Part shown: piece after piece, positions 94 to 14,725 of the stretch
Numbering within the stretch: position 1 is the first letter of the stretch
Layout of the letters: each line of letters starts with the position of its first letter
The notes under the pieces: model-generated
What the model was told of the DNA's origin: nothing
Databases searched by the model: none
What the model saw: the letters and a program-made list of their open reading frames with translations, nothing else
Translations under genes and position numbers: made by a program
Source: an uncultured SAR116 cluster alpha proteobacterium
Lineage (GTDB): Bacteria > Pseudomonadota > Alphaproteobacteria > Puniceispirillales > Puniceispirillaceae
Reading direction: 5' to 3'
Assembly: GCA_902520885.1 (NCBI GenBank)
Contig: CABYPW010000006.1
Location: 1 to 64,000 of the forward strand
Length of the DNA stretch: 64,000 bases

Positions 94-351
94 TTATTTT
101 CTTTTTGTTACCATACTACCCTTTAATCTCTTCAATAAGACATTATCGGTGGAACTTACTCCAATCCCTAAACCACTAATATATGATAATAAGGTATTTT
201 GTTGAGAGATGAGTTGGTTTTGTTTCTTTGGGTCTTTCTCAGACTGTATCTGTTGATTTAGGTTTCTCATTTGTAAAACCAAACCACCAACGGTAATCCT
301 TAACCACATAGGATACTTACCTTCAGAGATAAACTGTTTAAACCGTAACAT
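94..351 (-). CDS. Small phage-like hypothetical protein (85 aa)
   Basis: Function unknown. The protein is basic, with an amphipathic helical middle rich in Gln/Asn/Lys and a Gly-Ile-Gly stretch before a basic C-terminus. Its N-terminus (MLRFKQFISEG) resembles the start of many small proteins of T4-like marine phages; that is recalled family knowledge and not tested here. Its ATG overlaps the stop of the upstream gene by one base (TAATG), which suggests translational coupling. It is the last gene of the accessory minus-strand operon visible before the window edge; the operon may continue outside. Confidence 0.6.
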   Translation of the reverse strand: MLRFKQFISEGKYPMWLRITVGGLVLQMRNLNQQIQSEKDPKKQNQLISQQNTLLSYISGLGIGVSSTDNVLLKRLKGSMVTKRK

Positions 352-542
352 TAGTTTCCACCATCGATGAACATTACTGAGAAATGACCTTTCCTCATAT
401 ATTGGTCAAATAAACGATTTAAGGTTGGTTTATCTTTCATTGAAAATACTTCTATCACTTCAAACTTTGAATTAGTGGGAAGTTTATTCATCAATGATAT
501 TAATTGAGTTTTATTTTTTGGTGATTGAGTGGACGAAATCAT
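351..542 (-). CDS. Small hypothetical protein of the accessory operon (63 aa)
   Basis: Function unknown. A 63-residue soluble protein without membrane segments or cysteines. It is joined to its neighbours at both ends: its ATG overlaps the stop of the ribbon-helix-helix gene by four bases (ATGA) and its stop overlaps the next start by one base. That packing, rather than any recognised domain, is the main reason to accept it as a real gene. Confidence 0.55.
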   Translation of the reverse strand: MISSTQSPKNKTQLISLMNKLPTNSKFEVIEVFSMKDKPTLNRLFDQYMRKGHFSVMFIDGGN

Positions 543-931
543 CTTCCTATTCCGTTTAAGAAACCTACACCACTTATATCATCCCAATCTTCATCATTGG
601 TATGGTCACTCCAACTTCTTTTCTCATTTAGTGTAGGTATCATAGGTGGTTCATATTCCTCCTCTACCTCACTCTTCATCGTTCTCAGTTGAGTCTTTAA
701 TTCCTCTTTATTTCTTTTCTCTACATCATTTATCATTAGGTTAAGGGTATTATCATCTTCCATTAGTTTCTTTTCAGAACGTATATAACTCTCCATTAGG
801 TGAACTAACATTGAAGTTCTACTTACCCTTTTAAATCTTACTAAATTATCAAAATTCTTAATGAGGTATTTGGGTACATTAAAATTAATCAATTTATAAT
901 CAGATAAAATGTTCGTTGAGGTCATTCCCAT
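539..931 (-). CDS. Ribbon-helix-helix DNA-binding protein (130 aa)
   Basis: Probable DNA-binding regulator. Residues about 12-58 fit a ribbon-helix-helix (Arc/MetJ/CopG) fold: a short strand (LINFNVP) followed by two helices with the SRTS turn that usually separates them. The C-terminal half is acidic and charged (EVEEEYEPP) and has no recognised domain. The start at 931 is supported by an AAGG Shine-Dalgarno sequence 8 bases upstream. Its 5' end overlaps the preceding gene by 32 bases. In a small replicon-like operon such a protein would typically control copy number or repress the operon; that role is inference. Confidence 0.65.
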   Translation of the reverse strand: MGMTSTNILSDYKLINFNVPKYLIKNFDNLVRFKRVSRTSMLVHLMESYIRSEKKLMEDDNTLNLMINDVEKRNKEELKTQLRTMKSEVEEEYEPPMIPTLNEKRSWSDHTNDEDWDDISGVGFLNGIGR

Positions 932-1190
932 ATTGGATACCTTTCCTTTCTCTTACTTCGATTATTGGTTCAAAGAACCTATATATTTCGTCCCTATTTG
1001 AACGAATAAACTCACCTTCTCTCTCTATGAATTTAATCATTGAGTTGTACTGTTTGAGAGTTATGAATTGGTTATTCTCTAATCTTTTTTTGATATTAAT
1101 GAGGACGTTTTTCATTTTAAGGTTCTTTTTTAATAAATATTGATTGATATATTTGAGTAAAAGAGACCTTTGATATTTTGAGTTATACAT
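900..1190 (-). CDS. Small basic hypothetical protein (96 aa)
   Basis: Function unknown. A highly charged, Lys/Asn/Ile-rich helical protein whose centre (ITLKQYNSMIKFIEREGEF) resembles small conserved proteins of marine phages; I recognise the style but cannot name the family. An AAAGG Shine-Dalgarno lies 8 bases before the ATG at 1190. It follows the HUH endonuclease gene by about 100 bases and overlaps the ribbon-helix-helix gene downstream, so it belongs to the same transcript. Confidence 0.6.
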   Translation of the reverse strand: MYNSKYQRSLLLKYINQYLLKKNLKMKNVLINIKKRLENNQFITLKQYNSMIKFIEREGEFIRSNRDEIYRFFEPIIEVRERKGIQYGNDLNEHFI

Positions 1191-1292
1191 ATTAGTGACC
1201 TTTGTGATTTAGATAATATTAATCATTAAAGAGAAAGTGAGGTTCTCTTTTGGATTTTTAAAAAATTGATAATTCAAAGGACTTTATAGTCT

Positions 1293-1772
1293 TCAATGAA
1301 TAAGAACCGATGAGTTCTCAAAATCAATTGATGTACTCAAACTGACTTTCGTAAAGTCTTTCATAATATAATCTAACCAACCATCTTCCCTTAATTGGGA
1401 GGATGGTTTTTCTATATCGATTTGGTCATAACCAAACTTTGTATTTCTCCATATTCTTTTGATAAGAGAACTAAACTCATCAAACCGATACCTTAGAGGT
1501 AATTCAATAATACAATGAAGATGATGTCTTTGATTAAGACTTACTTCTCTGATTACTAACATCTCTAATTGTTTATTAAATCGTTTGTATCCGTTACCAA
1601 ATACCTTTCGATTTAATACGTTTTTAAAGTGTTTAAAATTCTGTTCTGATTGAAAGTCATCTATCCATTTACCATCAACTTTTTGTTTTTGAGTAAAGGT
1701 AATATTGATAGGATTTTTAACTCTCTTTGACCTTAAATAGTTTTTTAATTGGTCATTTAGATTAGAACTCAT
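1293..1772 (-). CDS. Minimal HUH endonuclease / rolling-circle Rep-like protein (159 aa)
   Basis: Probable single-tyrosine HUH endonuclease that would nick DNA to start rolling-circle replication or transposition of the element. The three classical motifs appear in order: motif 1 ITFT (residues 24-27), motif 2 His84-Leu-His86, the metal-binding HUH, inside HHLHCIIELP, and motif 3 Tyr135-x-x-Lys138 (YIMK), the catalytic tyrosine and its lysine. The protein stops about 20 residues after motif 3, so there is no helicase or large C-terminal domain. No clear Shine-Dalgarno precedes the ATG. It sits mid-operon among short phage-like genes. It could instead be an IS200/IS605-type Y1 transposase relative, but the YxxK motif fits Rep better. 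Confidence 0.72.
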   Translation of the reverse strand: MSSNLNDQLKNYLRSKRVKNPINITFTQKQKVDGKWIDDFQSEQNFKHFKNVLNRKVFGNGYKRFNKQLEMLVIREVSLNQRHHLHCIIELPLRYRFDEFSSLIKRIWRNTKFGYDQIDIEKPSSQLREDGWLDYIMKDFTKVSLSTSIDFENSSVLIH

Positions 1773-1850
1773 ACAACACCGTTTTGTATAAAATTTAATT
1801 TATTTTCTATTTATTATTTATTTATACATTTTGATTTTTTCAGAAATGAG

Positions 1851-1878
1851 GAAGAATCGGAGTTATGTCCGATTCTTC
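1851..1878. repeat. Perfect 11-bp hairpin at a gene end near the Rep gene
   Basis: An inverted repeat with an 11-bp perfect stem (GAAGAATCGGA / TCCGATTCTTC) and the 6-base loop GTTATG. It spans the stop codon of the 1863-2177 gene and lies about 80 bases upstream of the HUH Rep start. There is no clear T-tract on either side, so it is not a textbook terminator. A double-strand origin hairpin for the Rep, or an mRNA-stabilising structure, are alternatives. Confidence 0.6.
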
Positions 1879-2177
1879 ATTTGTTCAATTTGATAAAGGG
1901 TATCATCGTCCCATAATTTGGTTTTGAACTGATATTCAATCAAATTGATTATCTCTGAAGGGTCACTACCACTAAATGATTTGAAGTGGGATATTTGGTC
2001 TCCGTTGACATAACAGAATAACGTATTCCCATCGTAAGTGATTTTCCAAACCTCAAAGGTTTCATCATCTGTTGATGGTTCACCGTCTAATTCAACTTTG
2101 AAACCTTTTGTCCAATATTTAATTTCAAAGAGGATGTCATAGTTTTGAGGTTCTGATGTTGTAAATGTTCTACTCAT
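1863..2177 (-). CDS. Hypothetical protein of the accessory operon (104 aa)
   Basis: Function unknown. A soluble acidic protein with alternating strand-like segments (DILFEIKYW, FEVWKITYDG, TLFCYVNGDQI) and a helical C-terminus. The frame opens at 2201, but the ATG at 2177 (MSRTFTT) is preferred because it gives a short 8-base overlap with the previous gene. The end of the gene lies within a strong hairpin. Context suggests cargo or accessory function of the mobile segment. Confidence 0.5.
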   Translation of the reverse strand: MSRTFTTSEPQNYDILFEIKYWTKGFKVELDGEPSTDDETFEVWKITYDGNTLFCYVNGDQISHFKSFSGSDPSEIINLIEYQFKTKLWDDDTLYQIEQMKNRT

Positions 2178-2457
2178 AAACCGACCCCAATTCAAAACCA
2201 AAAGACCGAAAAATACTTTCCAACCTTTGTAAATAATTTGACCAAATCATCTCACATTCATATGAACTTACATTGGGGTGATTGACTTCGGAAGAATACA
2301 CACCGAAGAAAACGTCAACATAACCAATTAAATCGTTTAGTTGATCTTTTGGTAACTGATCTAACCAAATATTTAATTCGTTTTCGGATGTGTTATTGTC
2401 TTCATCTAAAATACTACCAAAAATCTCATTTCTTAATTCATCTAAATTCGTAATCAT
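2170..2457 (-). CDS. Acidic hypothetical protein of the accessory operon (95 aa)
   Basis: Function unknown. An acidic all-helical-looking protein (MITNLDELRNEIFGS...). The ATG at 2457 is chosen over the one at 2469 because a GGAG Shine-Dalgarno sits 6 bases upstream of it. The gene overlaps the next gene downstream by 8 bases. The acidic composition recalls small inhibitor or anti-defence proteins of mobile elements, but nothing specific supports such a function. Confidence 0.5.
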   Translation of the reverse strand: MITNLDELRNEIFGSILDEDNNTSENELNIWLDQLPKDQLNDLIGYVDVFFGVYSSEVNHPNVSSYECEMIWSNYLQRLESIFRSFGFELGSVYE

Positions 2458-2538
2458 TTTTATCTCCATAAAGTTAATTTTCTATTCTACTATTTTAGGA
2501 GATTTTGGTTGTTAAACTTAGGACAGTAGACCGATCAA

Positions 2539-2548
2539 AGTTATGTCC
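2539..2548. repeat. Second copy of AGTTATGTCC
   Basis: The ten bases AGTTATGTCC recur here exactly as in the loop and right arm of the hairpin at 1861-1870. At this site a GGACA at 2521-2525 could pair with the TGTCC end at 2544-2548. The two copies bracket the gene pair at 1863-2457. A ten-base match can be chance in an AT-rich region, though both copies sit in possible hairpins between genes. Confidence 0.35.
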
Positions 2549-2562
2549 AATCTGATTTCGAA

Positions 2563-2778
2563 TTAAGGATTAGGTCTATAAGGAACTACTACTAAAGTTT
2601 CCTTTAATTGAACTAACTTATCAGTTGTAAAACGATGTTGTCTTTTTCTGTATTTGGATAAGGTAGTCCAAACTAAAGTAGGATAGTATTCCAACCCCTT
2701 TGGGGTTTTAATATTACTATCATTAAAATACTGAGAAATCTGTTTAGACGAATAACCTTTATCCGATAAATGGATCAT
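2563..2778 (-). CDS. Recombinase-like helix-turn-helix fragment (71 aa)
   Basis: Resembles the 'Recombinase' region of large serine recombinases or a related small marine-phage HTH protein: the pattern SSKQISQYFND...IKTPKG...W....L.KYRKR matches the 'I A..LN..GI.TP.G..W....V...L' layout of that domain. No catalytic resolvase domain is present. The same frame stays open upstream for over 35 codons with plausible sequence (VVRISQNRLDRLKL) but no ATG, GTG or TTG, so the gene may be a truncated remnant or start at a rare ATT. It is the accessory gene nearest to glmS. Confidence 0.45.
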   Translation of the reverse strand: MIHLSDKGYSSKQISQYFNDSNIKTPKGLEYYPTLVWTTLSKYRKRQHRFTTDKLVQLKETLVVVPYRPNP

Positions 2779-2870
2779 TAACTTTAATCGGTCTAATCTG
2801 TTTTGACTAATTCTGACGACCGATAAACTTTTTGTTTCTACTATAATATTGAATCTAATAAATAATTTGT

Positions 2871-2887
2871 AATTACCATAGGTAATT
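2871..2887. terminator. Short palindrome just past the glmS stop
   Basis: AATTACC-ATA-GGTAATT, a 7-bp stem with a 3-base loop, 7 bases beyond the glmS stop codon. It is too weak and lacks a T-run to be a convincing intrinsic terminator. It marks the boundary between conserved glmS and the accessory segment, so a recombination site is also possible. Confidence 0.3.
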
Positions 2888-2893
2888 CTAAAT

Positions 2894-4714
2894 CTATTCC
2901 ACTGTGACTGACTTTGCTAAATTACGGGGTTGATCAATATCCGTTCCTTTCTCGAGAGCTGTTAAATAAGCAAGTATCTGAGCAGGTACAGCGCTAACTA
3001 TTGGGGTAAGGATAGGGTCACAATTTGGAATAATAATCTTGTCTGTTGCGAAATCAATCATATTAACTGCAGTTTGTGTGCCTATAATAATAATGTAGGC
3101 TCCTCTAGCCTCTGCTTCTTTAAGATTACTTACGGCTTTCCGGGATATTTCATCCTCCGATACAAAACTAACTACTGGTAGACCCTCTTCTATAAGTGCG
3201 ATAGGACCATGCTTCATTTCCCCAGATGCAAATCCTTCTGCATGAATGTAACTAAGTTCCTTTAGTTTCAAAGCTCCTTCACATGCAAGCGGAAAAAGCA
3301 TATCTCGACCTAAAAATAAACAAGAATGTGCATTTTTTAATTTATAAGAAATCGGAAGAATAAGCTCAAATAGGTTCATCGATTTACCAATGGTACTAGG
3401 TATCTTTAGAATTTTTTGATGAATGTTATTCGAGATATCTTCATCTAATTTTCCATTTTGTCTACCTATAGATATTGCTAAGCATATTAATACCACTAAT
3501 TGTGCGGTGAATGCCTTGGTACTTGCAACGCCTATTTCTGGTCCGGCTCTTGTTGGTAAGATTTTATCTACCTCTCTTGAGATTGTGCTATCTACAACAT
3601 TTACTATTCCATATGTGTCAAGACCTAGCTTCTTTGCATGTCTAACGGCCATTAATGAGTCTATGCTTTCCCCAGATTGACTAATAACTATTGCTGTGGT
3701 CTGAAATGAAGCGACTGGATTGCGATAATGATATTCAGAGGCTACCTCACAAACCACTGGCACGCCCGCTAGCTTTTCAATCCAATAGCGACCAATTTGC
3801 GCTGCATAGAAACTTGTTCCTGCTGCCAATAGCACAATACCCTTGATCTTAGATAGGTTATAATCCTCTAGCCCTGCCGTTAATCGTCCATTGCTGTCTG
3901 TCATCGCTGAAATTGTATGGCTAATCGCATCTGGCTGTTCATGGATTTCTTTTTCCATGTAATGCCTAAAACCCAACTTATCTAATAAAATTGGACTTAC
4001 GTTTACCTTTACAACTTCTCTATTTACCATCTCGTTTTCGCCATTATAAATAGTATGGCTTTTCGATGTTAAAATAGCATAATCATTGTCTTTCAAGTAA
4101 GTAACTTTTTGTGTCAAATGTGCAATGGCTGTTGCATCTGAGGCAACAATTACCATATCATCTGAAAATCCAATTGCTAGTGGAGAAGCATTACGGGCTA
4201 CCATTAATGAATCAGGATATGATTTACTCAATGCTACAAATGAATAAGCCCCCTCAATTTTTGTTAATACAGTCTCTAATGCTCTTTTAGGGTCCAAACC
4301 TTGGCCGATCATATTAGAAAATAAATGTGCAAGCACTTCTGAGTCTGTGTCACTTGAGAATACACAACCTTTATCCATAAGCTCTTCTTTAAGGGAGGCA
4401 TAATTCTCAATGATACCATTATGAACGATTGCAATCTCGCCATTTACGCTATGTGGATGAGCGTTTTGCTCTGTAACACCTCCATGTGTCGCCCATCTAA
4501 TGTGCCCAATGCCTATTTTCCCAGAAACTGGTTCTTCCAAAATTTTTGCTTTTAATTCGGATAGTTTACCAACGGAACGACGCAATTGTAGTCTGTCGTC
4601 ATTTAGCGTTGCTATACCAGAGCTATCATAACCACGATATTCTAATCGTTGCAAGGATCCTAAGATTATTTCCTGACACGCCTCATTTCCGATATATCCT
4701 ACAATTCCACACAT
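2894..4714 (-). CDS. glmS: Glutamine-fructose-6-phosphate aminotransferase (isomerizing)
   Basis: Makes glucosamine-6-phosphate from fructose-6-phosphate and glutamine, the first step to UDP-GlcNAc for peptidoglycan and lipid A. 606 residues, normal length. The mature N-terminus is the nucleophile Cys after Met (MCGIVGYIG), giving the glutaminase domain; two SIS sugar-isomerase domains follow (SQSGES and the ...ELSYIHAEGFASGEMKHGP region). The frame opens at a TTG at 4732, but ATG 4714 is the start because Cys must follow Met and an AGGA lies 9 bases upstream. Divergent from glmU, which acts later in the same pathway. Confidence 0.97.
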   Translation of the reverse strand: MCGIVGYIGNEACQEIILGSLQRLEYRGYDSSGIATLNDDRLQLRRSVGKLSELKAKILEEPVSGKIGIGHIRWATHGGVTEQNAHPHSVNGEIAIVHNGIIENYASLKEELMDKGCVFSSDTDSEVLAHLFSNMIGQGLDPKRALETVLTKIEGAYSFVALSKSYPDSLMVARNASPLAIGFSDDMVIVASDATAIAHLTQKVTYLKDNDYAILTSKSHTIYNGENEMVNREVVKVNVSPILLDKLGFRHYMEKEIHEQPDAISHTISAMTDSNGRLTAGLEDYNLSKIKGIVLLAAGTSFYAAQIGRYWIEKLAGVPVVCEVASEYHYRNPVASFQTTAIVISQSGESIDSLMAVRHAKKLGLDTYGIVNVVDSTISREVDKILPTRAGPEIGVASTKAFTAQLVVLICLAISIGRQNGKLDEDISNNIHQKILKIPSTIGKSMNLFELILPISYKLKNAHSCLFLGRDMLFPLACEGALKLKELSYIHAEGFASGEMKHGPIALIEEGLPVVSFVSEDEISRKAVSNLKEAEARGAYIIIIGTQTAVNMIDFATDKIIIPNCDPILTPIVSAVPAQILAYLTALEKGTDIDQPRNLAKSVTVE

Positions 4715-4746
4715 GTCATTTGGTCCTATCAACTTTGTGCCAAATA

Positions 4747-4830: not shown

Positions 4831-6159
4831 ATGAGTTTTACTGTTATTATACTCGCTGCAGGTAAAGGCAGCAGGATGAAGTCTTCTACTTCCAAGCCTT
4901 TGCATAAAATTGCAGGGTGCGAAATGATTAAATGGGTATTAGAGGCATCGAGGAAAGCTGGTGCAACGCAAATCATTCCTGTTATTCGAAAAGAAATGTC
5001 TGACTTAGCATCTTATCTATCAAATTATTCTACTGCAATTCAACCGGAGGCAAACGGCACAGCTGATGCTGTTGTTGCAGCTTTACCGCATATTAAAAAT
5101 TTAAATCAGCCGGTTATTGTATTATACGCAGATACTCCATTTATAACAGCAGAAATTATTTCTTCCCTTTATTATAAAATTTATTCAGGAAATGATATAT
5201 GTGTCCTAGGATTTCATACTGATAACCCATATGGATATGGAAGATTAATTCAATCTACCACAGGAGGACTAAAAGCAATTGTGGAAGAAAGTGAGGCTAG
5301 CACATCAGAAAAAATGATAAAAAATGTAAATGCTGGTATAATGGCGTTTAATGGCAACATTATAGAAAAATTGATAAACAAAATAACCCGATCTAATTCG
5401 AAGGACGAATATTTTCTCACCGATATAGTCTCTATTGCTAATGATAATAATCTCAATGTCGATTTTATACTGACTAAGTATGAATATGTAATTGGGATAA
5501 ATGATCGTGAGCAATTAGCTTTTGCAGAATCACTTGCGCAAAATTATCTTCGAAAATCAGCAATGTTTTCTGGCGTAACTATGATTGCACCAGAAACAAT
5601 CTTTTTACAAAAGGATACTGTTTTTGGCCCGGATGTAATTATTGAACCAAATGTTATTATTGCAAGTAACGTCTCAATTGCAAAAAAATGTCATATTAAA
5701 TCATTTTGTTACCTAGAGGCGTGTTCAATAGGGGAAAATAACATAATTGGACCTTTCGCTAGAATAAGACCAGATACTATAACAGATAAAAATGTAAAAC
5801 TTGGAAATTTTGTGGAAGTTAAAAAATCTAGTATTGGCAAGGGAACCAAAATCAGCCACCTTAGTTATATTGGGGATACACTGATTGGAGAAAATACAAA
5901 TATAGGCGCCGGAACTATAACTTGTAATTTTGATGGTTATAAAAAATATAAAACAAAAATCGGCTCAGGCTCGTTCATTGGCTCAAACTCCTCTTTAGTA
6001 GCGCCATTAAACATCGGGGAAAACACAATTATAGGGGCAGGTTCAACAATTACCGAAAACACTCCAAAAGACAGCTTGAGCCTATCAAGAGCAAAACAAG
6101 AAGTAAGAGTGGATGGGGCCAAAAAGTTTCAAAAAAATCAAAAACAAACAAAATATTAA
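4831..6159 (+). CDS. glmU: Bifunctional GlmU: N-acetyltransferase / uridyltransferase
   Basis: Acetylates glucosamine-1-phosphate and then couples it to UTP to give UDP-GlcNAc. The N-terminal half has the nucleotidyltransferase signature (LAAGKGSRM followed by a conserved Lys) and the C-terminal half is a left-handed beta-helix of hexapeptide repeats (IGENNIIGPFARIRP, IGENTNIGAGTITCN). 442 residues, close to the usual 450. An in-frame ATG at 4816 would add five residues (MYNLQ), but it overlaps the -10 box, so 4831 is preferred. Divergent from glmS and convergent with the SbmA-like gene. Confidence 0.95.
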   Translation: MSFTVIILAAGKGSRMKSSTSKPLHKIAGCEMIKWVLEASRKAGATQIIPVIRKEMSDLASYLSNYSTAIQPEANGTADAVVAALPHIKNLNQPVIVLYADTPFITAEIISSLYYKIYSGNDICVLGFHTDNPYGYGRLIQSTTGGLKAIVEESEASTSEKMIKNVNAGIMAFNGNIIEKLINKITRSNSKDEYFLTDIVSIANDNNLNVDFILTKYEYVIGINDREQLAFAESLAQNYLRKSAMFSGVTMIAPETIFLQKDTVFGPDVIIEPNVIIASNVSIAKKCHIKSFCYLEACSIGENNIIGPFARIRPDTITDKNVKLGNFVEVKKSSIGKGTKISHLSYIGDTLIGENTNIGAGTITCNFDGYKKYKTKIGSGSFIGSNSSLVAPLNIGENTIIGAGSTITENTPKDSLSLSRAKQEVRVDGAKKFQKNQKQTKY

Positions 6160-6185: not shown

Positions 6186-7181
6186 TCACTTTGCTATTTC
6201 TGCATAATCGCTAGAAATCTGATGTTCAAATTCTCTAAGACGTTTATATACACTTAATAATTCAATAATAGTAGGCCAAGCCCTTAAAAGATATTGCATC
6301 GAGCCTTCAACTCTCCCAAAGGCTCTGATAATTTGCTGCATTACTCCTAGTGTAACAACTCCGGCAACTATGGCGGGGGCTAAGAAAATATAAGCCGATA
6401 GTACATTGGCCTGCAGGTATGCCACACGACCAATATTAAAATAGAGGTATCTTAAATAAGACAAAAAATGAATAGACCTAACATCTAAAAATATTTCTTC
6501 TATTGTTTTTGGCCTAACGTTCTCGGCGTCGTCATCTTCCGCTATTACAAGAATTTTTCTATACGCTGCCTCTTTTTTTTGAAGATCATATTCAATTCCA
6601 ACAAGTCTAAGTAACCATCCTAAAACAATAAGAAATATAGTCCCGCCAACACTCCATAAAAGAGCGCCTGTAACTAGTCCAAATTCCCAATCACCAAAAA
6701 AGAATATTGGAATACCTATTGAAAGTCCCAGCAATATAGGAACAAATTGCACTAGCACCATTATTGCTTCTATAAAGCTTGTCCCCAAACCCTCCATAAT
6801 CCTTGTGAATTTTATAGTATCTTCTTGAACTCGCTGGGACGCACCCTCAATTTTTCTAGCCCTATGATAAACGGAGTGATACCAATCAACCATCGATGTT
6901 CTCCACCTAAACAAGAAGTGAGCCGTAAAATAACTTACTAATACCGAAATAGCTACGTAGATAGCCGCTAGAGACATAAAACTAAAAAGACTACTCCAAT
7001 ACTCTTCTATTGTAATGGAATTAGGCTCACCAAGAGCTTTTTGGATAAGATCATAAAATTCTCCAAACCATTCATTGATCTCAACATCGATCTGTACTTG
7101 AACCCATAAAGAGGATAGAATCGCAGCTGAACCCAACCAAGACCAAAAAAACCATTTTCTTATTGTGAAAAACCTAAACAT
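6186..7181 (-). CDS. SbmA/BacA-family peptide transporter, short form
   Basis: Inner-membrane transporter of the SbmA/BacA family, which takes up peptides, including some antimicrobial peptides, and in other alphaproteobacteria influences very-long-chain fatty acids and B12 import. Family landmarks are clear: FYDLIQKAL, FRWRTSMVDWYH, IEGASQRVQEDT, YLRYLYFNIGRVAYLQ and SVYKRLREFEH. At 331 residues it lacks about 70 N-terminal residues, including one or two membrane segments, relative to E. coli SbmA (about 406). No upstream in-frame extension is seen because the gene begins 61 bases after the rodA stop. It is probably co-transcribed with the rod-shape operon. Confidence 0.85.
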   Translation of the reverse strand: MFRFFTIRKWFFWSWLGSAAILSSLWVQVQIDVEINEWFGEFYDLIQKALGEPNSITIEEYWSSLFSFMSLAAIYVAISVLVSYFTAHFLFRWRTSMVDWYHSVYHRARKIEGASQRVQEDTIKFTRIMEGLGTSFIEAIMVLVQFVPILLGLSIGIPIFFFGDWEFGLVTGALLWSVGGTIFLIVLGWLLRLVGIEYDLQKKEAAYRKILVIAEDDDAENVRPKTIEEIFLDVRSIHFLSYLRYLYFNIGRVAYLQANVLSAYIFLAPAIVAGVVTLGVMQQIIRAFGRVEGSMQYLLRAWPTIIELLSVYKRLREFEHQISSDYAEIAK

Positions 7182-10855: not shown

Positions 10856-11775
10856 TGCAGGATCTCTTTGACATTTAAACCTTCAAATAAACGTTCCTTT
10901 TTTTGGTCTATCAAAGGGGAGTAAAAAATATCGCTCTTTTCTGGATCAACGAAAAACTCAGGGACTGTTTTTCGTGAAAGAATGGTTACAAACGAGAGTT
11001 TCCTCAGTTCGACTGAAGGTGTCACTAAAACTTGCTTTTTAGTTATGGAAGAGACTCTGCCAACAGGTATACCAGCAGGAAGTAAACCGCCATGCCCCGA
11101 TGTAACAACTGTCTCGTTGAGAGATGGTTTAGCTTCCGCAGGAAGAAAATCCAACCCTAATATGAGACCATTTTTGCCAACTGCAAGACCCGGCCAAGAA
11201 GAGTCGCTTAGAATGACTGGAATCCTAGCATTCACATCACTTAAGAGAAGAATACGCGAAAAATATTTTCCACTGGAAATAATATAACCAACTAAACCTT
11301 CTGCTGTAACAACTGCGCTACCTCTTGCTATAACATGATTGGCTCGATGTTCAACAATCATACTATGTGTAAAATTTCCCCCAGGCACTGCGATAACGCG
11401 AGCAGTAATAGCGTCCCATTCCTGTGGGATAACAGCCCCAAGAACTGTGCGTAATTGTCTATTTTCGACCTCCAGTTTTTCAGCTATTCTTTGTAGTTTT
11501 TTCAATCTCGCATTTTCAAGTTCGAGTCTATTTGCTTTTTTCCTTAAAGATGCGACTGTCTGGAGCCCCTCAAATAAACTTTCTATGCTATTTACTGGAA
11601 CTGTGACGACAGAATAAAAAGGTGCAATTACTTCAACTACTCCACCTTGCATATAGCGTACCGCAGTTAAATCTGCTTTACCAACCAAAATTAATAAGAA
11701 TCCAAATGAGATAATCAATATTTGAGGAATACGAGAATTAGATTGTTTCCTTTTAATCTGTTTTAACCAGACCAT
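10852..11775 (-). CDS. mreC: Rod shape-determining protein MreC
   Basis: Bitopic scaffold protein of the elongasome that binds PBP2 in the periplasm. It has one N-terminal transmembrane helix (about residues 18-38), a coiled coil (about 70-110, LRKKANRLELENARLKKLQ), then the beta-rich domain with VIAVPGGNFTHSMIVE and TSGHGGLLPAGIPVG. 307 residues. It starts 10 bases after mreB. Confidence 0.95.
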   Translation of the reverse strand: MVWLKQIKRKQSNSRIPQILIISFGFLLILVGKADLTAVRYMQGGVVEVIAPFYSVVTVPVNSIESLFEGLQTVASLRKKANRLELENARLKKLQRIAEKLEVENRQLRTVLGAVIPQEWDAITARVIAVPGGNFTHSMIVEHRANHVIARGSAVVTAEGLVGYIISSGKYFSRILLLSDVNARIPVILSDSSWPGLAVGKNGLILGLDFLPAEAKPSLNETVVTSGHGGLLPAGIPVGRVSSITKKQVLVTPSVELRKLSFVTILSRKTVPEFFVDPEKSDIFYSPLIDQKKERLFEGLNVKEILQ

Positions 11776-11785
11776 TCTTTACCAA

Positions 11786-12850
<1,065 letters not shown>

Positions 12851-12993
12851 TTAATCGCAATACAACTACGACATAATAATCCACAAGTTAACCAAAAAAA
12901 ATAGTTTTATTATATTTTAGGTCTTACAAAACAAAACTAAGCAAGTTTTATTCTAGGATTAACATTTTTAATAAAATTAACTATGGTTATTAA

Positions 12994-14121: not shown

Positions 14122-14643
14122 TTAGTCCGCAAGATCAATTTTATTTCCTCGGGTGATTCCACATATTCCAGTTCTTGCAACTTCTACTTTACCTAGTGAT
14201 TCCATTAGGTCAATAAAAGCAGAGACTTTCTCTGAAGCTCCTGTAACTTCAAATACGAAGCTATTAAGAGAACTATCTAGTATTCGAGCTCTAAAGCTAT
14301 CTGCAATGCGTAAAGACTCGATCCGACTATCTCCCTTATTTACGATTTTGACCAGAGCCAACTCACGTTCAACGTGAGATGGACCATTTGTTAAATCTTC
14401 AACTTTGTGAACGGGAATGAGCTTAGAAAGTAGCTGTTCTATTTGATTTATAACTTGGGGTGTTCCTGTGGTTACAACGGATATTCTCGAAGTCTTTTTC
14501 TTTTTATCAACCACAGATACCGTTAAACTCTCAATATTGTAACCACGTCCAGAAAACAATCCAACAACACGAGCGAGAACTCCAGGCTCATCATCCACAA
14601 GCACAGATAAGGTATGTCTTTCAATTGTTTGAGTATCTAACAC
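14122..14643 (-). CDS. ilvN: Acetolactate synthase small (regulatory) subunit
   Basis: Regulatory subunit that confers valine feedback sensitivity and activates the large subunit. Tandem ACT domains: the first begins HTLSVLVDDEPGVLARVVGLFSGRGYNIESL, shown here only as a landmark of residues 10-40, and the second covers about residues 80-160. 173 residues, typical of the single-regulatory-unit type. Lies 82 bases after ilvB. Confidence 0.95.
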   Translation of the reverse strand: MLDTQTIERHTLSVLVDDEPGVLARVVGLFSGRGYNIESLTVSVVDKKKKTSRISVVTTGTPQVINQIEQLLSKLIPVHKVEDLTNGPSHVERELALVKIVNKGDSRIESLRIADSFRARILDSSLNSFVFEVTGASEKVSAFIDLMESLGKVEVARTGICGITRGNKIDLAD

Positions 14644-14725
14644 CTAATATTATCCCTTTTTCTTAAACAGTGCTTACTATGATCAGATAGTTTTAAAATA
14701 CCACTAATTGATATCCTATAATTTT

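Follow-up and report, generated by a model that had tools for sequence, protein, structure and literature searches.

The stretch of DNA analyzed here, referred to as the window, comprises 64,000 nucleotides from an uncultured alphaproteobacterium of the SAR116 cluster. It starts with base 1 of contig C6 in a genome of 2.17 Mb and 39 contigs (G000; genomes, contigs and loci carry our codes G, C and L). Directly behind the host gene glmS, eight short open reading frames (ORFs) run on the minus strand to the contig end, with neighbours overlapping by 1, 4, 32 and 32 bases, just as an earlier note on this DNA had described them. This island reveals a G+C content of 29-30%, compared with 37% in the remainder of the window. 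Six of the eight ORFs have homologs in preserved order in other genera (G018, G010) and are therefore regarded as real genes. Very probably, the part of the island in the window is the attL-side end of an integrative element, inserted at the last glmS codons by a large serine integrase (LSR); the LSR is encoded at the opposite end, with its attachment site attP placed within an extended integrase reading frame. Coordinates are collected in Table 1.

The remaining part of the island was located by means of a leader repeat of about 80 bp with a GGACA..TGTCC dyad. In a DNA search of the own genome, besides the window copy (2450-2548), the right end of contig C5 (locus L007) was matched, where further copies occur at 11171-11250, 12828-12907, 14220-14299, and 14633-14712, each preceding genes. 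Within the genome, the repeat is restricted to both island halves, and it is absent from 60 family members. It likely represents a shared operator or promoter of an element-wide regulon. Weaker copies were noticed in an element of G010 (L014 6958, 7518, 8595).

Many small genes are found at the right end of C5, together with genes for a 553-aa LSR and a 200-aa tyrosine recombinase. Here, the island closes with the LSR gene (int), followed by a copied glmS tail and then by the neighbour gene, a nucleosidase. The orientations of the C5 part and the window part match those expected of one insertion, and a 21-nt arm of the attachment sites is also common to both. We infer that the two contig ends are parts of one island, separated by an unsequenced gap; an overlap between the ends of C5 and C6 was looked for and none was found. 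The element measures at least 11.9 kb, the assembly gap excluded. Thus, the other boundary, which the earlier note proposed to seek, lies on C5, and the integrase that it had not seen is the LSR on this adjoining contig.

A strain without the island is available in the nearest relative, G009, which belongs to the same genus. Its glmS gene is 95% identical and is followed by 51 bp and then by the nucleosidase gene. Since this gene adjoins glmS in G009 but forms the far flank on C5 in G000, the island was inserted between glmS and the nucleosidase gene. The possibility that all relatives carry the same genes was examined and did not hold: the Rep protein of the island shows a patchy distribution, being present in 5 of 61 genomes. 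A core chromosomal cluster was ruled out by the empty site in G009 together with this distribution. As a side observation, the glmS matches in G005 (C131:347-2182) and G006 (C34:27515-29350) contain one in-frame TAA each.

From its sequence, the 553-aa protein is an LSR with predicted recombination activity. It contains an N-terminal resolvase catalytic domain with the catalytic serine, PF00239 (E=1.2e-23), including a YxRVS motif that is invariant in the alignment, and the recombinase domain PF07508 (E=1.4e-10; 41.8 bits against a cut-off of 21.1); in the structure comparison, structures of the A118 integrase were matched. The hallmarks of LSR systems, a dyad-symmetric attP beside int and hybrid attL and attR sites, are both found. 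Immediately upstream of int, several glmS elements encode a small serine recombinase of the resolvase type with about 180-200 aa (L045 2556-3146, L061 7186-7785, L046 10744-11295).

Relatives of the integrase were found in 9 of 136 genomes in the order-level search (E<1e-25) and in 4 of 385 genomes in the class-level search, with G302, G321, and G451 lying beyond the order. A scan of public genomes added SAR116 single-cell genomes as well as Paracoccaceae and Rhodobacteraceae metagenome-assembled genomes (MAGs). Each of the 14 loci of the clade, from SAR116 and other alphaproteobacteria, either lies at glmS or has a glmS tail or glmS-side neighbours following it. Linkage to glmS itself is given in eight of them, G000 (by the contig join), G025, G028, G047, G048, G085, G451, and G302. 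The assignment of G040 and G049 follows from the tail and the neighbours on the glmS side, and that of G114 from attL and attR, which lie on two contigs; the three MAG loci L065, L070, and L071 carry the glmS tail right after int. Among the 14 loci, G028 and G049 are fragments and G302 is a pseudogene, while the arrangement is complete on single contigs in G025, G047, G048, G085, and G451. Serine recombinases of Clostridiales (L073) and Ligilactobacillus (L074), 22-24% identical, were placed outside the clade, and no glmS is present at the L073 locus.

Tandem arrays occur as well. A second, decayed element closing with another glmS remnant lies beyond attR in G000, second elements are present in G048 and G085, and G114 contains three consecutive elements on two contigs, with the contig break inside the middle element. 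The empty site in G009 and the 14 of 14 loci bear out the suggestion of the earlier note that a small, apparently undescribed mobile family uses the glmS end as its landing site.

The attachment sites are in accordance with this assignment. A 21-nt sequence at the glmS end, GAATAGATTTAGAATTACCTA, is repeated on either side of the integrase gene. The copy past int reads TAGGTAATTCTAATTCTATTCGGTTACCGTAGAGTAG on the coding strand, composed of the inverted arm and the glmS tail (SVTVE-stop). As judged from these sequences, this copy is attR, and the glmS end with its mirror arm is attL. The attL arm recurs inverted at attR (L007 7135-7160, within an attR at about 7122-7160) and in the int promoter (L007 8884-8909). 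At both sites, inverted arms specific to the element flank the core formed by the glmS tail (..SVTVE-stop), and the tail copy leaves the C-terminal end of GlmS unchanged. For the circle junction, an attP of the form ..CTATTCGGTTAC-AGTGGAATAGATTTAG.. is predicted.

In G025, the whole element resides on one contig and spans about 12.97 kb, with attL at glmS and attR directly after int. Its arm differs (TATATCATTCT), and a copy is again found in the int promoter. The same pattern, each time with own arms, is seen in G047, G048, G085, G114, and G451. The inverted arms exceed all 2000 shuffles in six of seven elements (P<0.0005), with G451 being weak (P=0.03). The distal glmS remnant DDQPRNLASPLTVE (L007 ~5797-5832) was considered as attR of the main element and ruled out by the arms; it belongs to the second decayed element. 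In the remains of the latter (L007 5797-7122), the att core is immediately followed by a recombinase-domain ORF; two ORFs for small secreted proteins, one of them with internal repeats, and a glmS tail encoding DDQPRNLASPLTVE-stop are also present.

These data also bear on other kinds of mobile elements. The 3' end of glmS is the classical attTn7 site, which is the point in favour of a Tn7-like transposon. However, the insertion lies in the stop-codon region with serine-integrase att sites, Tns proteins were not found in the sequenced parts of the G000 island, in keeping with the earlier note, and no Tns-like ORF was recognised in the complete elements of G025 and G451. A Tn7-like transposon was rejected since TnsABCD/TnsE genes were not seen in these sequences, and we regard its probability as negligible. 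The 200-aa tyrosine recombinase on C5 might be the true integrase, with the serine recombinase as a passenger, and it is indeed conserved with about 80% identity in G000, G025, G010, and G022. Yet its copies in G010 and G022 reside in elements at tRNA-Arg with a separate 408-aa integrase, a full-length copy was not seen in G047, G048, G085, and G451, all of which are at glmS, and it is only the serine recombinase that both tracks with glmS and abuts attR. This explanation is therefore considered highly improbable.

The earlier note had further considered a phage satellite. Such an element, or a defective prophage with an attachment site at glmS, would be in accordance with the small overlapping genes, the probable ribbon-helix-helix regulator, the Rep, the size of 6-13 kb and the defence-type cargo in relatives. 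On the other side, capsid, terminase, portal, packaging-interference and helper-hijacking genes were not recognised in the sequenced parts, the assembly gap being unseen; the absence of structural genes reported earlier thus holds for these parts. The Rep and the integrase have no relatives in IMG/VR in a pattern-based search at the sensitivity used, where just a 27% match for the tyrosine recombinase was obtained, and the Rep is unmatched among phage records. A search for Rep relatives in plasmid collections likewise gave none. A prophage was ruled out by the lack of recognised structural genes and of relatives in the viral collection, and we consider the satellite explanation as a whole improbable.

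Having attributed the element to the LSR, we turn to the reading frame of its integrase. In the window, the DNA directly behind glmS encodes some 110 aa that resemble a recombinase domain. The earlier note had listed the ORF 2563-2778 as a recombinase-like fragment; the likeness is supported by a PF07508 match, but the ORF is in fact the 3' part of a frame, 2563-2886, that reaches into the glmS end. The window copy scores 21.3 bits against the cut-off of 21.1, and the domain matches PF07508 in 9 of 10 family members (best 4e-7). All ten intact int genes contain a run of nine or ten adenines (A-run) shortly upstream of the core, usually the sole A9/T9 run of the locus, even in DNA of 53-58% G+C. 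In 9 of 10 cases, a single frame is free of stops from the run to the core, and it is always the one in which a codon boundary coincides with the first A.

attP was rebuilt by script, joining the left part of attR to the right part of attL, which was possible for seven elements. In each of these seven, the recombinase-domain ORF can be followed upstream without stops as far as the int 3' end, and the frame from the A-run to the domain is open over 57-77 codons. The long frame is reached directly, in the int frame, in G047, G040, L065, L070, and L071, via a -1 shift in G000, G025, G048, and G451 (in the latter read by eye from the sequence), and via +1 in G085/G114. As run and frame are kept while the required shift differs, slippage at the run fits better than one fixed frameshift. 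Integration would thus sever the C-terminal recombinase-like domain from the integrase.

On balance, we favour the view that these enzymes form a bacterial LSR clade dedicated to the glmS tail, in which attP lies within a slippage-extended int and integration amputates a C-terminal DNA-binding domain, switching the enzyme from an integrating to an integrated-state form. Control of directionality would be built in, and self-disruption would be described for the first time for an integrase of bacteria and for a serine recombinase. On the excised circle, a single gene would comprise int, attP and the extra domain; from it, a short and a long integrase could be made, directly or by -1/+1 slippage. 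Recombination with the last glmS codons would create attL and attR and cut off the extra domain, which would remain behind glmS (window 2563-2886) in the direction of glmS, with the catalytic integrase at the opposite end. The integrated integrase would then exist in its short form only, or with a different tail, and this altered form may help to set the direction of recombination. For excision, the element could rely on the separate domain, with read-through from glmS providing its expression, or on a superinfecting relative. The arm copy in the int promoter may allow the integrase to repress or sense its own promoter, and the HUH Rep may replicate the excised circle by the rolling-circle mode.

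The same glmS-targeting LSR element could, alternatively, contain the recombinase-like ORF as an independent gene starting beside attP, e.g., for a recombination directionality factor, with the A-run and the open frame being incidental. Such factors are often small DNA-binding proteins, both G018 and G025 have an ATG at the att arm, and in G018 the domain is well preserved behind glmS, where int was not found. The window copy, however, has ATT and no ATG at the domain start, the frame from A-run to core is open in 10 of 10 cases in identical codon phase, other stop-free frames are absent in nine of them, and the A-run is retained in GC-rich hosts. The ten shuffle odds multiply to about 6e-7, a value that ignores relatedness and the constraint by the att arms. 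We therefore hold the independent gene to be possible, though rather unlikely.

Several observations weigh against an integrase that is split by its own integration, or against the element as reconstructed here. The shift that is required (none, -1 or +1) is not itself conserved, the open frame lies partly within DNA constrained to carry the att arms, and the domain could be a separate protein made from its own start, as the ATG in G018 and G025 suggests. Because a fold search against PDB gave no significant match for the domain, its identity rests on Pfam. The zinc-ribbon PF13408 of the integrase stays below the cut-off (20.4 against 25.3 bits); a CxxC motif is present in the integrases of G000 and G025. 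The elements are not all independent, as G000, G025, and G018 share ancestry and G085/G114 are nearly identical. The proposed C5-C6 join spans an unsequenced gap, and recombination, frameshifting and excision are predictions from sequence.

Among known systems, the archaeal "suicidal" tyrosine integrases of SSV1, pTN3, and pT26-2 carry attP inside the integrase frame, such that integration splits the gene, and a review from 2021 describes self-disrupting recombinases as exclusively archaeal (PMC8371274). The glmS elements share the position of attP within the integrase frame, directly or via a -1/+1 shift. They differ in that the enzyme is not an archaeal tyrosine recombinase (PF16795) but a serine integrase in alphaproteobacteria. 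Furthermore, the archaeal split leaves no intact enzyme, whereas here the catalytic, recombinase and zinc-ribbon-like parts stay together and the extra C-terminal domain, entered at the A-run, would alone be severed. SCCmec-type elements integrate at the 3' end of rlmH by the serine recombinases Ccr without destroying the gene. They have in common with the glmS elements a large serine recombinase and the 3' end of a conserved gene that is spared; the target glmS, the single integrase, attP inside an extended int frame and the occurrence in alphaproteobacteria are different. In the mycobacteriophages BPs and Brujita, attP lies inside the repressor gene, and integration alters the C-terminus of the regulatory protein (PMC9262239). 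Here, too, attP is in coding sequence, but in these phages it is the repressor that is shortened, by a tyrosine integrase at a tRNA gene. With Tn7 relatives, the landmark at the glmS 3' end is shared, while enzymes and site chemistry differ and no Tns genes were seen in the glmS element.

Thus, islands of large serine integrases are of a known kind, and the proposed built-in split of the integrase is the unusual part. On serine integrases at glmS and on slippage in int, nothing relevant was found in the open-access literature, which is weak evidence of novelty. The choice of direction by serine integrases is a central question and is usually ascribed to separate directionality factors, while in the glmS elements the enzyme appears to be altered by the act of integration. 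If this is true, self-disruption would no longer be confined to the tyrosine recombinases of archaea but would include serine integrases of bacteria, new site-specific integrases for the conserved single-copy glmS tail would be at hand, and glmS would be a hotspot carrying restriction-modification and other cargo in marine alphaproteobacteria. The elements may also account for several contigs breaking close behind glmS in these genomes.

Table 1. Features of the glmS island; positions refer to the window unless a contig is named.
Position	Strand	Feature	Basis
94..351	-	small protein, 85 aa, conserved Rep-side module	homologs 58-74% identical, same order, in G018, G010, G022; 62% in G025
351..542	-	small protein, 63 aa	60-73% identity in G018 and G010, same order
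539..931	-	probable ribbon-helix-helix regulator, 130 aa	36-62% identity in G018, G010, G022
900..1190	-	small helical protein, 96 aa	58-67% identity in G018 and G010
1293..1772	-	HUH endonuclease Rep, 159 aa, HLH and YIMK	motif alignment, PF23343, predicted structure
1863..2201	-	small accessory protein, 112 aa	match to a protein of the G010 element, 36% over 53 aa
2170..2469	-	small accessory protein, 99 aa	38% identical to its paralog in the C5 part of the island (L007 12465-12785)
2450..2548	-	leader/operator-like repeat, GGACA..TGTCC dyad, upstream of the 2170-2469 gene	
2563..2886	-	PF07508 recombinase-domain-like C-terminal domain; ATT start is a guess	ORF 2563-2778 is its 3' part
2879..2908	-	attL	glmS-tail core GTCACAGTGGAATAG and element arm ATTTAGAATTACCTA
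2894..4732	-	glmS, host gene, attB in its last codons	SIS and GATase domains; empty-site comparison
C5:129187-130845		large serine integrase, 553 aa	opposite element end from the window, abuts attR

The HUH/YxxK Rep recognised in the earlier note proved genuine. Its HxH, E and YxxK motifs are invariant across seven relatives, and PF23343 (REP_ORF2-G2P) is matched in all seven, the window copy staying below the curated cut-off. The AlphaFold model has a pLDDT of 80.7, and Foldseek gave weak matches (E 0.006-0.03) to the HUH domains of the Reps of wheat dwarf virus, AAV and circovirus and of ISHp608. Compared with HUH rolling-circle Reps of PF23343, HUH and YxxK are common, while this Rep is a single domain of about 160 aa, unmatched in plasmid and phage collections. 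The HUH motif suggests rolling-circle replication. The Rep module consists of the Rep and the 96-aa, ribbon-helix-helix-like, 63-aa and 85-aa proteins, and is common to the tRNA-Arg elements of G010 and G022, which use the 408-aa tyrosine integrases. In G034, a Rep relative adjoins tRNA-Arg.

Among the other glmS elements, the Rep is present in G018, G085, and G114 and was not found in G025, G047, G048, and G451. Given its occurrence in some glmS elements and in tRNA-Arg elements, the Rep is an optional, swappable module. The integrated rolling-circle element suggested earlier is thus supported only in part. The ribbon-helix-helix assignment is probable, based solely on sequence appearance and a HicB-like Pfam match that stays sub-threshold.

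Rep-bearing tRNA-Arg elements with full-size tyrosine integrases were noticed in the same bacterial family (L016 6379-15505, L014 5621-14402, L018 8918-10675), and the one of G022 carries a gene with the appearance of a glycosyltransferase. Relatives carry, as cargo, genes for type I restriction-modification, GIY-YIG/HNH proteins and a type III-like methyltransferase. In a glmS island of a SAR116 single-cell genome (L064 2951-7754) and in a Paracoccaceae MAG island flanked by the glmS tail (L065 97-4945), the type I genes (HsdR and a fused HsdM-HsdS) appear closely similar, as judged by eye from the start sequences; a recent transfer between families is possible.

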